The position numbers and the translations under genes were made by a program. A stretch of DNA of 64,000 nucleotides from Massilimicrobiota sp. An134 (lineage in GTDB: Bacteria; Bacillota_I; Bacilli_A; Erysipelotrichales; Coprobacillaceae): the NCBI RefSeq assembly GCF_002160815.1, contig NZ_NFLH01000001.1, forward strand, positions 62,001 to 126,000, written 5' to 3'. A model generated the notes under the pieces. It worked only from the letters and a program-made list of their open reading frames with translations, ran no database searches and was not told the DNA's origin. How positions within the stretch are numbered: the stretch's first letter is position 1; each line of letters begins with the position of its first letter. Shown one piece after another: positions 57,676 through 64,000 of this stretch.

Positions 57676-58452
57676 TTATCTAAAAAGACGTTCCAGTAGA
57701 GGTTTTCTTTTATTTTTTTGAAAAGGAATCTCCTGCCCCTCTAATCGTTTGACAATACGATCAAAACATCGATAAATATTTTCTTTTTTATTCATATAAA
57801 TAGGCATTCCTTTATTGTTAGCCTCAATCATATCATGTTCTTCATAAACAATTCCAATCAATGGAATTGACAAAATATCGTAGGCTTCTTTAAGTGAAGG
57901 ACAACGCCCTTTCAAAACATCTGATTCATTATATTTATTGACAAGCATATGTAATTGATCAACACCCTGTTTCAACAATAAGCCTACAACACGATCAGCA
58001 TCACGTAAAGAAACAGTATCTAGATTGACAACGATAATAGCTTCTTTTGACAAACTACTGGCATATTGAAACCCTTTTTCAATACCAGCAGGACTATCAA
58101 TCAATATATAATCAAATTCCTGTTTTAACTGTTCTACCATATTGATCATATAATCTAAATTTAAATTTTCAAAAGAAAGCGATTTACACGCAGGTAATAA
58201 ATATAAAGATTGCATACGTTTATCTTTAACTAAAATCTGTTGTAAAGAACATTTATTTGAAATAACATCTTTCAAATCAAAAATCACTCTATTTTCTAAT
58301 CCTAACATGACATCTAAGTTTTTCAAACCAAAATCCGCATCTATTAAACATACTTTTTTATTCATATTGGCTAATGCATAACCCAAATTAATGGTCATAC
58401 TACTTTTTCCAACACCACCTTTACCCGATGTAATGACTATAGTTCGACACAT
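57676..58452 (-). CDS. minD: Septum site-determining ATPase MinD
   Basis: This 258-residue ParA/MinD ATPase has the deviant Walker A motif SGKGGVGKSS (about 8-17) and a C-terminal amphipathic membrane-targeting helix (RKPLLERLFR). With MinC it blocks division at the poles. AGGAGG precedes the ATG. The start overlaps the end of minC by 32 bases. Confidence 0.97.
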   Translation of the reverse strand: MCRTIVITSGKGGVGKSSMTINLGYALANMNKKVCLIDADFGLKNLDVMLGLENRVIFDLKDVISNKCSLQQILVKDKRMQSLYLLPACKSLSFENLNLDYMINMVEQLKQEFDYILIDSPAGIEKGFQYASSLSKEAIIVVNLDTVSLRDADRVVGLLLKQGVDQLHMLVNKYNESDVLKGRCPSLKEAYDILSIPLIGIVYEEHDMIEANNKGMPIYMNKKENIYRCFDRIVKRLEGQEIPFQKNKRKPLLERLFR

Positions 58453-59011
58453 AATTTTCCTCCTTCGTCAAAATAATCTGGTTATCTTTATAATAAACGC
58501 TTGTGAGTGCAGAAGTTGTCAAATCATGTAATGTCTGTTGATTAATTATAATTTGAGCATTTTGAAAATCATGTCCAAATATACGTACATCTTCATTCAT
58601 TGCGACAATAGTTCCTTTGACTGTATTAAGAAAATAAACATTCTGATAACAATAAACATAACTTCCTGGATTGACGATTCCTAAAAATAATGTTTCATGA
58701 TCAATGATAATTTCTTCACCATTGTGAAGTTGTTCTTTTCTGATATGGACCTGATGAGGTTGTTGATGATATGTCATACCATCAAATAAAACCTTTTCTT
58801 TTTGCATCAGTAAATCCATCAAAGAATGAACTTCATCAATTGCTAAAACTCGACAGCCAAAATCAAAAAAAGCTCTTGGATAGTACCCCTCCTGTTGAAA
58901 TAGGGGTTGCTCCAAAAGCTGATTCAAATCATCTAAAAACTGCTGAAATGTACAATTCTCATTGACTTTCATAACCAGTATTCCATTAATTCCTTTGACT
59001 TCAATATTCAT
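58421..59011 (-). CDS. minC: Septum site-determining protein MinC
   Basis: The protein has 196 residues. The N-terminal domain (about 1-95) is diverged; the C-terminal domain (about 100-180) has the MinC beta-helix pattern with Gly-rich turns (GSYVYCYQNVYFLNTVKG). It inhibits FtsZ assembly. It starts next to the mreD stop. Confidence 0.9.
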   Translation of the reverse strand: MNIEVKGINGILVMKVNENCTFQQFLDDLNQLLEQPLFQQEGYYPRAFFDFGCRVLAIDEVHSLMDLLMQKEKVLFDGMTYHQQPHQVHIRKEQLHNGEEIIIDHETLFLGIVNPGSYVYCYQNVYFLNTVKGTIVAMNEDVRIFGHDFQNAQIIINQQTLHDLTTSALTSVYYKDNQIILTKEENYVSNYSHYIG

Positions 59012-59532
59012 TATTTCACCTCAATTTTCACTTTATTGTAGATCCAATAAATGATAACTGATAAAACAGCATTCAAAAGTAGTGTTGGTAATAATTGCAT
59101 AACTACAAATGAAACCATTGGATATCTTGTCATATTGGTAATCCACATCAACCAATATACAATACATTCCTGGGCGAATATTGTCAAAACACAAAAAATT
59201 GTAGATTCAACAATATTTAATGTGTCTAATTTAAACAAATATGAACGAACAAAGGCGATTAAACAATAAATAAGAATATATATGGCTAAAGAATTTGCAT
59301 AGACAACAGAATAATAAAGACCACATATGGTTGCAAAGAAATAACGTTCTGCACCGTCTATTGTCCTCACTAATAAAGCAAACATCATTAAACCTAAGTA
59401 TGGTGTGATGGTTATTCCGGTTTTAGTGAAATTATAGGGCAAGAAATAATGAATTGTACTATCGACTACAAAACATAAAAAAACGACTAAAAAACATTTG
59501 ACTAGATAGCTATCTTGGACACGTTTTCTCAT
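59011..59532 (-). CDS. mreD: Rod-shape protein MreD
   Basis: This 173-residue protein has about five membrane segments, the usual length for MreD, part of the elongasome. Residues are highly hydrophobic with a basic N-terminus. It starts within the end of mreC (ATGA) and ends at the start of minC. Confidence 0.9.
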   Translation of the reverse strand: MRKRVQDSYLVKCFLVVFLCFVVDSTIHYFLPYNFTKTGITITPYLGLMMFALLVRTIDGAERYFFATICGLYYSVVYANSLAIYILIYCLIAFVRSYLFKLDTLNIVESTIFCVLTIFAQECIVYWLMWITNMTRYPMVSFVVMQLLPTLLLNAVLSVIIYWIYNKVKIEVK

Positions 59533-60386
59533 TCGTCATTCACCCTTTGAACAACAGCAACATCATTAAGAGCATCAAAATCCACACTAGGTGTGACATC
59601 ACAAACAGACTCAGTTGCATCATCACCAGTCGCATAATTTTCTACTGTTCCAACTAAAATACCTTTTGGACTCTTTCCTTTTCCACCTAGACCACTTGTT
59701 ACAACCTTAGCATCTTTTTCAATTGTTTCAACATCACTTAGCAAAGTAATAGAATATTTATGCGTATTAATATTATAACGATTTAATAATCCATAGTATT
59801 CCTCATCACCACTTAAAATCATAACTGGCAATTGTGACTTGGATGTTTCACTTGATAATAAAGTGACTGTTGAAGAAATTTCACTGACACTTGTAATTGT
59901 CCCAATCATTCCCTGAGCATTGACTACTGCCATACCTTCCTGTACACCAGAAATTTTCCCTAAATTAATAGTGACCTGATTATTCCAGTTTTGAGCATCT
60001 CTAGCAATCACATTTGTATATTTTACCTGATATTCAGTAGGTAGATGATCAATATCCATAATTTCTTTTAAATCATTTAATTCATTTGTTAAAACTTCAT
60101 TCATTGCACTCTCACGAGCTAAATTATCTAATTGTTCCTTCAGTTTTGCATTTTCTTCATAAACATCTTTTAAATCATTATATTCTTCAAATAATCCTGT
60201 TACATATTGAATAGGCGCTTTAATAATATAATATTCTAAATTTGCAATTGTATCTTTAAAAATAATTTCTATACTTGAAGCAGAACGACTGGTTACAAGT
60301 GTTAATACTGAAAATGAAACCAGTACAACTGTTATAATAACGATTCTTCTTTTTTGTTTTGTCCATTTATTACCTTTTCTATACAA
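59529..60386 (-). CDS. mreC: Rod-shape protein MreC
   Basis: This 285-residue protein has a basic cytoplasmic N-terminus, one membrane segment (about 15-35), a coiled coil (about 65-105) and two beta-barrel domains (about 110-270) that face the wall and scaffold PBPs. I favour TTG at 60386, five bases after AGGTGG; a GTG at 60395 overlaps that site. mreB, which normally precedes it, is absent here. Confidence 0.92.
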   Translation of the reverse strand: MYRKGNKWTKQKRRIVIITVVLVSFSVLTLVTSRSASSIEIIFKDTIANLEYYIIKAPIQYVTGLFEEYNDLKDVYEENAKLKEQLDNLARESAMNEVLTNELNDLKEIMDIDHLPTEYQVKYTNVIARDAQNWNNQVTINLGKISGVQEGMAVVNAQGMIGTITSVSEISSTVTLLSSETSKSQLPVMILSGDEEYYGLLNRYNINTHKYSITLLSDVETIEKDAKVVTSGLGGKGKSPKGILVGTVENYATGDDATESVCDVTPSVDFDALNDVAVVQRVNDE

Positions 60387-60411
60387 AGATACCACCTCTT
60401 ATCATTCATAC

Positions 60412-60482: not shown

Positions 60483-61160
60483 TTATTCATAAAAAAACAA
60501 TTGTTTTGCCATAATACTATAAAATTGATTCCACCCAATCACAATATGATCTATGACTTCAATTGACATCATTTGTCCTAATTTTTGAAACTGTTCTGTC
60601 ATAAGCAAGTCTTCTTCACTAGGCAATGCATCTCCACTTGGATGGTTGTGTACTAAAACAATTTTTGCACTGCTTATAGCGATAGCTTCTTTAAAGACTT
60701 CTCTAGGCGTGACAACACTCATATTTAATGAGCCAATAAAAATGGTTTTTTCTTTGATGACTTTATTTTTATTATCCAAACAGAGCAACAGGAAATGTTC
60801 TTGCTTTAAAAACATCAACTGGTTATGTACTCTTCCAAAAATATCATAAGGATTGAGTAATGGCTTCTCTATTGATGAAACATCTTTTAATCTTTTAGCA
60901 ATTTCTATAATACTCAATATTTCAATTGCTTTTGCTTGCTTAATTCCCTTCAAAGCAATCAAATCTGCATAAGTAACCGTCGATAGATTTGCAAAACCTC
61001 CAATTTCCGTTAATAGACGCTGTGACAATTGAATCACCGATTCATTTTTATGCCCAGTTCTTAATATCAGTGCCAACAATTCTACATTATTCAATGTTTC
61101 AATACCATATGTTAATGCTTTTTCACGTGGATTTTCTTCTAATGGTAATGTCTTAATCAT
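60483..61160 (-). CDS. radC: RadC-family JAB domain protein
   Basis: This 225-residue protein has a helix-hairpin-helix pair (about 35-75) and a JAB metallopeptidase-like domain with HNHPSGDALPSEEDL (about 170-184). Its role is unclear despite the name. It sits upstream of mreC as in Bacillus and overlaps the SPOR-like gene. Confidence 0.94.
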   Translation of the reverse strand: MIKTLPLEENPREKALTYGIETLNNVELLALILRTGHKNESVIQLSQRLLTEIGGFANLSTVTYADLIALKGIKQAKAIEILSIIEIAKRLKDVSSIEKPLLNPYDIFGRVHNQLMFLKQEHFLLLCLDNKNKVIKEKTIFIGSLNMSVVTPREVFKEAIAISSAKIVLVHNHPSGDALPSEEDLLMTEQFQKLGQMMSIEVIDHIVIGWNQFYSIMAKQLFFYE

Positions 61161-61513
61161 AGATCATCACCTTTCGATAAAGAATCCAATAACATTTCAT
61201 TTGTGGTAGATGTTGGCACAATATAAGTTTTCATGATTCCTTTTACCTGTGTAGCATGTTTTTCTATATCTTCTTTTTTTTCACTAATCATTGATAATAC
61301 ATAATATTGGTCATTTTTTGTATAGGTATATCCTTCGATTCCCATTTCTTTCAATTCAGCTAATTTTTCATCTTTATTACTTGCTTCCTTATAAATACCA
61401 ACCTGATATGCATAAAGTGTCTTTTGTCCTAGAGAGCATCCATATGTAAAAATAAACATAAAAGCCAAAGAACTAACAACTGCAAAAATAACAACTTTCC
61501 ATTCAAACTTCAT
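61157..61513 (-). CDS. Membrane-anchored protein with SPOR-like domain, unknown function
   Basis: This 118-residue protein has one N-terminal membrane segment (about 8-28) with a Cys at its end (YGCSLG), followed by a compact domain (about 35-110) with the beta-alpha-beta spacing of SPOR folds (AYQVGIYKE then YYVLSMISE), which bind denuded glycan strands at the septum. The link to SPOR is by pattern only. I start at the ATG at 61513; an earlier GTG lies on the ribosome-binding site. Confidence 0.7.
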   Translation of the reverse strand: MKFEWKVVIFAVVSSLAFMFIFTYGCSLGQKTLYAYQVGIYKEASNKDEKLAELKEMGIEGYTYTKNDQYYVLSMISEKKEDIEKHATQVKGIMKTYIVPTSTTNEMLLDSLSKGDDL

Positions 61514-61551
61514 TTTAATCACCCTTTCTAATCTATGCTATAACATATAAA

Positions 61552-61580
61552 AATATGAAAGGCAAATTGCCTTTCATATT
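61552..61580 (-). terminator. Terminator after the double-glycine peptide gene
   Basis: A nearly perfect palindrome (61552-61565 with 61567-61580) with a T run on the - strand, beginning one base after the stop codon. Confidence 0.85.
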
Positions 61581-61581
61581 A

Positions 61582-61746
61582 CTAATCTCTCCATTCAATA
61601 CTGATGAGTCTTGGAATTGAAATTCTTCCCTTCTTCGATTTAATAATTTTATACGCTGCAGCACCTAATATCAAATAAAGTAATGCAGTCGCAATTAAAC
61701 CTCCACCTTGAATTTCACATTGCTGTTGTACGGTTAATTCTTTCAT
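61582..61746 (-). CDS. Small peptide with double-glycine leader (bacteriocin- or signal-like)
   Basis: The product is 54 residues. The first 15 form a classic double-glycine leader: MKELTVQQQCEIQGG, matching the LS/T-x-x-E/Q-L/C-x-x-I-x-GG pattern cut by C39-peptidase ABC transporters. The 39-residue mature part begins with Gly, has a hydrophobic helix (LIATALLYLILGAAAY) and a basic, Trp-containing tail (KIIKSKKGRISIPRL). A ribosome-binding site (GGAAGGG) lies five bases upstream; an upstream ATG overlaps it. It is a single-gene unit with its own terminator. There is no transporter, immunity or regulator gene nearby. A class II bacteriocin or a secreted signal peptide is most likely. Confidence 0.75.
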   Translation of the reverse strand: MKELTVQQQCEIQGGGLIATALLYLILGAAAYKIIKSKKGRISIPRLISIEWRD

Positions 61747-61821
61747 GCTGACCCTTCCTTTCATCAGTAGCCCCTAATTATTATATATACATTTTTTTCA
61801 ATTTTTTCTTCTTAAAAACGA

Positions 61822-61850
61822 AAAAAAGTGAAATTTTTCAATTTCACTTT
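61822..61850 (-). terminator. Terminator after valS
   Basis: AAAGTGAAATT (61825-61835) pairs with AATTTCACTTT (61840-61850), with a T run on the - strand. The stem starts in the valS stop codon. Confidence 0.88.
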
Positions 61851-64000
61851 ACATCATATTCAATTTATCTTTCATCGCATTATATTTTGATTGGTAATCA
61901 GCCAATTTCTTTCTTTCCTGTTCAACTTTTTGAGCAGGTGCTTTTTGAACAAAGTTTGGATTAGAAAGCATAGATTCACAACGTTTAATTTCGTTTTCTA
62001 GCTTTTTGATTTCATCTTCCATCTTTTTCTTTTCTGCTTCCAAATCAATATAATCACCTAATTCAATAATCAAAGCATTACCACCTTTGATCATTTCTGT
62101 TGCTACATTTGAAGATGTTTCAACATTATAACCAAAGCAACGCGCATGACAAAGTTTATAAATATATGGTGAAAGATTTTCAAGTAAGCTTTCAAGCTGA
62201 GTATCCTGTGTTTGAATAGAATATGCAATTTCAATAGCATTTTTAATGACATATTGAGCTCTTAAATTTCTAATACCTTTAATGATATCAATTAAGTAAA
62301 CAAATTGATCCTGAATTTGTTCATTATTGAATCTATCATTAATAGTAGGCCATTTCGCAATACAAATAGATTCTTCTATATGTGGAATAGATTGATAAAT
62401 TTCTTCTGTCACAAAAGGCATAAATGGATGTAATAATCTTACAATTGCATTCAATACATAAACCAATGTATTTTGTGTTGCTTTCTTTTCAATGTCATTA
62501 TCACTATTTAAATGAACCTTAGACAATTCAATATACCATGAACAGAAATCATCCCAAATAAAATTATAAAGTTCACTACCTACATTAACAAATTCAAATT
62601 TATCCATGTTTTCATCAACAGAAGCAATCACTTCATTTAAACGATTGAGAATCCATTGATCAGCTAAATTTAAATGATCAAATGATAAATCCTGATATGA
62701 CATATTTTCATCAATATTCATTAAAACAAATCTAGCAGAATTCCATATTTTATTAATAAAATTCCATGCAGCATCTAATTTTTCAGGAATATATCTTAAA
62801 TCCATACCAGGTGCAGAATTTGTTGTTAAAAAGAATCTTAATGTATCAGCACCATATTGGTCAATAACATCCATAGGATCAACACCATTACCTAAAGATT
62901 TAGACATCTTTCTTCCTTGCTCATCACGAATCAAACCATGAATCAGAACATTTTTAAATGGTCTTTGGCCAGTAAATTCTAATGATTGGAAAATCATACG
63001 AGATACCCAGAAAAAGATAATGTCATAACCTGTGACTAATGTGTCAGTTGGGAAATAACGTTGATAGAGTTCACTCTCTTTATTTGGCCAACCCATTGTT
63101 GAAAATGGCCATAAAGCACTTGAAAACCATGTATCAAGAACATCTTCATCCTGTTTCCAGTTTTCAATATCTGCAGGTGGATTTTTACCCACATAGATTT
63201 CTCCTGTTTCTTTATGATACCATGCAGGAATCTGATGTCCCCACCATAATTGACGTGAAATACACCAATCTTCAATATTTTCCATCCATTGTTTAAATGT
63301 TTTTTCAAAACGAGGTGGCACAAAAGAAACCTTAGAATCTTTTAATTGATTCTCTAATGCCGCATTAGCAAGTGGTTTCATCTTGACAAACCATTGTTTT
63401 GATAAGTATGGCTCAACAATAGCATGACTACGTTCAGAATGTCCAACCTGATGCATATGTTTTTCAATATGATCAACAACACCTCTTGCTTCAAAATCTT
63501 TGACTAAAGCTTCACGGCATTCAAAACGGTCCATCCCTTGATATTGACCACATAATTCATTCATTGTACCATCATCATTCATACATTTTGGCATCGCTAA
63601 ATGGTATTTTTTTGCTAAAGCAAAGTCATTAGGGTCATGAGCTGGTGTACATTTCATAACAGCTGTTCCAAAACTCATGTCAATGTAGCTGTCTGCCATA
63701 ATTGGTAAAGATTCACCATTCGCAGGATTAATTGCATGTTTTCCAACCAAATGCTGATATCTTTCATCATCTGGATGAACAAAAATCGCTTGATCGGCAA
63801 ACATTGTTTCAGGACGTGTTGTCGCAATAATCAATTTTTCACCTGTTTCAACAACTTCATAATTGAAATAATACATATGTCCTTCAATTTCTTTATGGAT
63901 AACTTCAATATTTGATAAAGCTGTACGTTGAACTGGATCCCAGTTAATAATACGTTCTCCCTGATAAATATAACCTTTTTCATATAGCGTTACAAAAACA
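61849..64000 (-). CDS. valS: Valyl-tRNA synthetase (5' end beyond the window)
   Basis: At least 717 residues are present and the frame is open through the right edge, so the N-terminus (including HIGH) is missing. Visible are the editing domain (TTRPETMFADQA and CTPAHDPNDF), the catalytic KMSKSLGNG, the anticodon domain and the C-terminal coiled-coil arm (about the last 65 residues, rich in Glu and Lys). A T-box leader would lie outside the window. Confidence 0.97.
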   Translation of the reverse strand, partial: VFVTLYEKGYIYQGERIINWDPVQRTALSNIEVIHKEIEGHMYYFNYEVVETGEKLIIATTRPETMFADQAIFVHPDDERYQHLVGKHAINPANGESLPIMADSYIDMSFGTAVMKCTPAHDPNDFALAKKYHLAMPKCMNDDGTMNELCGQYQGMDRFECREALVKDFEARGVVDHIEKHMHQVGHSERSHAIVEPYLSKQWFVKMKPLANAALENQLKDSKVSFVPPRFEKTFKQWMENIEDWCISRQLWWGHQIPAWYHKETGEIYVGKNPPADIENWKQDEDVLDTWFSSALWPFSTMGWPNKESELYQRYFPTDTLVTGYDIIFFWVSRMIFQSLEFTGQRPFKNVLIHGLIRDEQGRKMSKSLGNGVDPMDVIDQYGADTLRFFLTTNSAPGMDLRYIPEKLDAAWNFINKIWNSARFVLMNIDENMSYQDLSFDHLNLADQWILNRLNEVIASVDENMDKFEFVNVGSELYNFIWDDFCSWYIELSKVHLNSDNDIEKKATQNTLVYVLNAIVRLLHPFMPFVTEEIYQSIPHIEESICIAKWPTINDRFNNEQIQDQFVYLIDIIKGIRNLRAQYVIKNAIEIAYSIQTQDTQLESLLENLSPYIYKLCHARCFGYNVETSSNVATEMIKGGNALIIELGDYIDLEAEKKKMEDEIKKLENEIKRCESMLSNPNFVQKAPAQKVEQERKKLADYQSKYNAMKDKLNMM

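Follow-up and report, generated by a model that had tools for sequence, protein, structure and literature searches.

C39 peptidases and the double-glycine leaders that they cleave are, to our knowledge, described almost only for bacteriocins, pheromones and modified peptides. The leader is recognised by the C39 domain through residues -4, -7 and -12 (PMC6363468). Gene 0401 of JCVI-syn3A, a code-4 mycoplasma, encodes a C39-ABC transporter; as in other mycoplasmas, no double-glycine candidate was identified for it, and the protein was tentatively assigned to lipoyl-peptide import and listed as removable (PMC6609329). Here, we analysed a window of 64,000 nucleotides (G000:C1:62001-126000) from the 2.56 Mb genome of Massilimicrobiota sp. 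An134, in which a short gene with a double-glycine leader lies next to valS. The original prediction for this gene is confirmed as an observation and partly supported in its interpretation. The gene probably encodes the precursor of a small, vertically inherited membrane peptide, which a dedicated C39 protease would mature. The peptide very probably belongs to the conserved components of the cell; a dedicated core system is the most likely reading, in preference to a stray bacteriocin.

A short precursor gene between valS and radC

The 54-aa precursor gene occupies positions 61582..61746 of the minus strand (stop included), with its start at 61746, 54 codons and its stop at 61582; the plus-strand translation of the same interval contains many stops. 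A second in-frame ATG located 18 nt upstream (61762-61764) would extend the product to 60 aa if used; the start conserved in relatives (MKEL, MYEL and MNEL in the alignment) is the inner ATG. The gene carries its own ribosome-binding site and terminator, as had been predicted: a Shine-Dalgarno sequence AGGAAGG (61753..61759, minus strand) is placed 6 nt 5' of the ATG, and an intrinsic terminator with a 13-bp hairpin and a T tract (61552..61580, minus strand) is found 3' of the stop. Two terminator-like sites were observed in the region versus 0.1 expected, and no Rfam RNA element was matched within the peptide interval. All neighbouring genes are encoded on the minus strand in the order valS (61849..64000, running off the window), peptide, a small SPOR-like protein (61157..61522, sub-threshold Pfam SPOR match), radC (60483..61160), mreC (59529..60395), mreD (59011-59532), minC (58421-59011) and minD (57676-58452), the last four forming a conserved context.

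The product consists of MKELTVQQQCEIQGG followed by GLIATALLYLILGAAAYKIIKSKKGRISIPRLISIEWRD and shows the expected succession of double-glycine leader, hydrophobic helix and basic tail. According to the alignment, the leader (61702..61746, minus strand) has a leucine at -12 (L4), an isoleucine at -4 (I12) and the glycine pair at -2/-1 (G14-G15), i.e. the hydrophobic residues at -4 and -12 and the GG motif of PCAT substrates. Residue -7 is Q and not hydrophobic in the species of the window peptide, and is M in some other members. The predicted mature peptide of 39 aa (61585..61701, minus strand) comprises a hydrophobic helix and then a basic, highly conserved GRISIPRLISIEWRD tail. An AlphaFold model of the peptide is helical over residues 6-39, at low confidence (mean pLDDT 68).

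The peptide frame is intact in each of the five congeneric genomes, and Massilimicrobiota contigs carry peptides 96% identical to the window peptide. Between the window genome and a congener (G001), the gene differs by 21 nucleotides and by no amino acid; it is under strong purifying selection. Mean pairwise identity amounts to 62% in the tail (residues 36-52) versus 47% in the leader. The view that the product belongs to no recognised family was borne out: NCBIfam gave no match for the window peptide, Pfam matched PF12669 only and below cut-off, and literature searches of open-licence papers returned no description of the family, which is previously unnamed.

In 40 of the 43 genomes of the window genome's family, a homologue lies between valS and radC. 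Leader and frame are preserved in relatives, as the original prediction requires. valS is the conserved upstream gene in these genomes, and radC follows the peptide wherever the contig reaches. Tandem paralogues with diverged tails are present in 2-4 copies in some genera (L073, L074 and L071 in G020-G023; L360, L362, L363 and L367 in family f5). In several family genomes (L079, L081, L086, L076), the main peptide gene has another short GG ORF of diverged sequence next to it. Strict MreBCD dependence was considered from the neighbouring genes and rejected, as peptides are present in genomes where MreC was undetected (among them G252, G255, G267 and G268) and in Mollicutes. Two family genomes in which the peptide is absent (G017 and G029) gave no MreC match either, as did some peptide-bearing genomes.

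The C39-ABC transporter and its locus

The original prediction noted no transporter or immunity gene nearby and called for a remote C39-ABC exporter, to be sought in the whole genome. One complete C39-ABC protein is present (G000:C12, 110.6 bits), with C39, membrane and ATPase domains in a 679-aa open frame and the catalytic residues Q-C-H-D intact. It is similar over its full length to PCAT1 (E 7.6e-46), its closest solved structures include PCAT1 and ComA, and its best NCBIfam match is NF045998 (Mbov_0121 family) with 267.6 bits, under the cut-off of 500. The gene is located between argD and ybeY-cdd-era-recO, and reading the neighbours of both the peptide and the transporter revealed no immunity, kinase or receptor gene at either locus. 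The peptide can be called an orphan locally but not genome-wide, transporter and peptide being encoded at two separate conserved loci. Its fixed place upstream of ybeY and its co-occurrence with the peptide throughout the class make the transporter look dedicated to this peptide. The proposal that it is shared with competence or quorum sensing is not supported; it may have further substrates besides the peptide. A second C39 match (G000:C27:20480-20854, L002), in an ORF of about 253-260 aa between a histidine kinase and a methylenetetrahydrofolate-reductase-like gene, was rejected as an exporter, being weak, beside unrelated genes and not an ABC exporter.

At all orthologous loci of the family that could be evaluated, the gene immediately upstream of ybeY encodes a C39-ABC protein. 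The catalytic Cys and His are intact in every C39 paired with a peptide, and so is the Asp except in G278. No peptide was detected in three family genomes, two of which retain a C39-ABC remnant at ybeY: in G017 the catalytic Cys is replaced by Thr, and in G019 the Cys is replaced by Ser, the His is deleted and the Asp is lost. The latter genome is 82% complete with a short mreC-radC contig, which makes the absence of the peptide there uncertain. The third genome (G029) has an ABC protein at ybeY and no C39 match in the genome.

Leader state and C39 across the class

An order-wide peptide search was performed and the radC and ybeY loci of the sister family were typed. Upstream of radC, three peptide states were distinguished: a GG leader, an altered leader (GR, GK, GS, GLG or GMG) and leaderless peptides of 39-46 aa, which keep the helix and a SxxGRxSIPGxxxxWG tail in the alignment. 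In genomes typed at both loci, a C39 ORF upstream of ybeY was present in 13/13 leader-bearing and 0/11 leaderless cases (Fisher's exact test, 4e-7, with relatedness ignored), and no sister-family genome without a peptide hit had a C39 there. Mapped onto a YbeY+RadC tree, the leader state requires 3 changes as compared to a mean of 9.8 and a minimum of 6 for shuffled labels (2000 shuffles), and the C39 status switches with every change; the independent co-losses of leader and C39 are few, about 3. Presence of any C39 in the genome was rejected as a correlate of the leader, one genome (G186) combining a leaderless peptide with a C39-ABC that lies about 22 kb away from ybeY.

The sister-family C39 ORFs at ybeY are 111-127 aa long and devoid of any ABC part. 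Standalone C39s mostly begin 2-5 residues before the catalytic Cys and consequently miss the N-terminal Gln of the family; Cys and His are present in 13/13 and Asp in 12/13. Several C39 partner peptides carry G-E, G-K, G-R, G-S or G-L in place of GG, pairs that are unusual for C39. In the LahT150 structure, this Gln lies at a distance of 4.3 A to the oxygen in question, and an oxyanion role for it has been called into doubt (PMC6363468). At two ybeY loci (L140 in G272 and L141 in G270), two toxin-antitoxin-like gene pairs directly precede the standalone C39 gene.

A class-wide search with a peptide profile built from both families detected the peptide in the small-genome Bacilli families f8, f19, f24 and f25 as well as in f16 and f5, both of which read TGA as Trp, and in genomes of 0.7-0.8 Mb. 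At the f8, f19, f24 and f25 loci that were read, it precedes radC, and it follows valS or greA where seen, radC being its conserved downstream anchor in these families and in both Erysipelotrichales families. The peptide of code-4 Mollicutes lies beside rplU or ileS-lspA; f5 has a GG peptide in 51/60 genomes, typically in the order greA-rsmI-peptide-rplU. When C39 matches were compared with ybeY, the C39 was directly upstream of it in 37 of 40 peptide-bearing genomes. C39 proteins of f8 and f19 comprise about 390 aa, with the C39 domain, hydrophobic segments and no ATPase match, and the Mollicute C39 proteins examined are full C39-ABC transporters, split into two frames in G500. The transporter of one Mollicute (G464) scores 758 bits against NF045998 (cut-off 500) and is a true Mbov_0121-family member; in this genome a GG peptide of the present family adjoins rplU-rpmA. 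Profile-profile alignments with hhalign connected f1-f2, f2-f8, f2-f16 and f16-f5 at 97-99% probability, f1-f8 at 98%, and f8-f16 and f8-f5 at 95-96%. Where the sequence signal is weaker, common position and a common partner support homology.

A small membrane ORF is located between C39-ABC and ybeY in f5 and g116. At five Mollicute loci (L341, L342, L346, L347, L348) the membrane ORF before ybeY has 124-150 aa, the one tested gave no Pfam match, and it is possibly an accessory subunit. In G363 (L352, 529-2912), a 407-aa C39 and membrane part overlaps with the next ORF (403 aa), perhaps what is left of an ATPase half. The peptides of f12 were set apart as another family, since their leader and helix alone match and the tail differs. 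At three f12 loci (L272 in G581, L273 in G374, L274 in G403), a different GG peptide with an RPLxC tail is encoded just downstream of its own C39-ABC gene of 689-693 aa, with a small accessory ORF in 2/3, as a separate one-locus GG system. Peptide matches in G155 and G077 were rejected as chance.

Proposed maturation and relation to known systems

We propose that the helical leader at the N-terminus docks onto the C39 peptidase encoded upstream of ybeY, which would cut after GG at residue 15. The 39-residue product would either form a single-span membrane peptide, with its hydrophobic helix and basic GRISIPxxIxxEW tail, or be passed across the membrane. In the window genome, the peptidase is part of a full ABC exporter, and cleavage is probably linked to transfer of the peptide into the membrane or through it; in other lineages the peptidase has no ATPase, or it is missing and the peptide is leaderless. 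The mature peptide would be the core product, with leader and C39 serving a dispensable maturation step. Because leaderless versions exist and ATPases were lost, active export appears not always to be needed and the mature peptide appears to be the functional core. We infer cleavage, a membrane location and a housekeeping rather than an antagonistic role; a role limited to cell-wall synthesis is argued against by the persistence of the peptide in wall-less Mollicutes.

A secreted signalling peptide, cut and exported by the C39-ABC and sensed by an unlinked receptor, would fit the combination of GG leader and PCAT, which is the pheromone export route and has ComA among the nearest solved structures, and the tandem paralogues seen in some genomes. 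We regard a pheromone as unlikely, given that neither locus has a histidine kinase, Rgg-like regulator or receptor beside it, that pheromones of the ComC/BlpC type diversify the mature part whereas here it is better conserved than the leader, that leaderless versions persist without any C39 at ybeY, and that the peptide is kept in genomes as small as 0.7-0.8 Mb. A class II bacteriocin, i.e. an exported pore-former that kills relatives, had also been suggested and is very improbable. It would explain the leader and the short, basic, hydrophobic peptide; 5/23 relatives match TIGR03949 (best E 3.1e-5), and one mycoplasma-type member reaches 21.6 bits in class IIb models with a cut-off of 21.5. 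Yet the window peptide matches no curated bacteriocin model, and immunity and export genes are not linked to it (valS, SPOR-like, radC, mreCD and minCD at the peptide locus), nor is there an immunity gene among argD, ybeY, cdd, era and recO at the transporter. Nearly every species of the family has the peptide, at one place, with a mature part that is conserved between species, and the leaderless relatives lack C39 at ybeY. Plasmids and phages gave no homologue, and a mobile bacteriocin was rejected on these grounds.

Peptide and C39 could instead be linked by common descent alone, with the leader reused, e.g. for membrane targeting, and the ABC transporter exporting other peptides. Degenerate glycine pairs in several lineages and C39 proteins without ABC in others are compatible with this explanation, but leader and C39 are co-lost and catalytic residues are lost where the peptide is missing, and we consider it improbable. 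That the gene is a chance ORF or gene remnant, as its shortness and the lack of a curated family might suggest, has practically no probability left: purifying selection and conservation across genera already refute it. Our preferred reading remains a membrane peptide that has its own C39 protease for maturation. In its broadest form we lean, by a small degree, towards one ancient two-locus Erysipelotrichales-Mollicutes system, in which the membrane peptide is the core and its leader can be removed; the C39 protein serving it would have lost the ATPase or the membrane part, or have disappeared altogether, more than once, the leader vanishing alongside. This system would include the substrate of the Mbov_0121 and JCVI-syn3A 0401 transporters, and C39 cleavage in it would be membrane-peptide maturation without export. 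The series from full C39-ABC over C39 with a membrane part but no ATPase and standalone C39 to none with a leaderless peptide would show the dismantling of leader processing; the leader/C39 pair behaves like core machinery retained very long, down to 0.7 Mb genomes.

With the class IIb bacteriocins (lactobin A/cerein 7B, TIGR03949; Bacteriocin_IIc, PF10439), the window peptide shares the leader layout and the small hydrophobic product, but differs in having no match to them, no immunity gene, a conserved mature part and leaderless relatives. HetC of Nostoc is a precedent for a PCAT in development rather than killing; it stems from a different phylum and has an extra nucleotide-binding domain (PMC10986499). 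The PCATs (PCAT1, 4ry2; ComA, 8hf4; TIGR01193) have the same order of C39, ABC membrane and ATPase domains and the Q-C-H-D residues found here. Unlike in PCAT systems, peptide and transporter are placed at two distant fixed loci within core-gene clusters, immunity and receptor genes are absent from them, and in sister lineages the peptidase either lacks an ATPase or has been lost together with the leader. The best NCBIfam match is the Mbov_0121 family of mycoplasmas: the transporter of the window genome stays below its cut-off; like the G464 member it sits upstream of ybeY. In relatives in the present set, a GG peptide gene is flanked by rsmI and rplU, and we predict that the same peptide is present in JCVI-syn3A. 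The family may be the missing double-glycine substrate of mycoplasma C39 transporters, a strong, concrete and testable candidate for orphan proteins to which the minimal-cell reconstruction had assigned another role by guess (PMC6609329).
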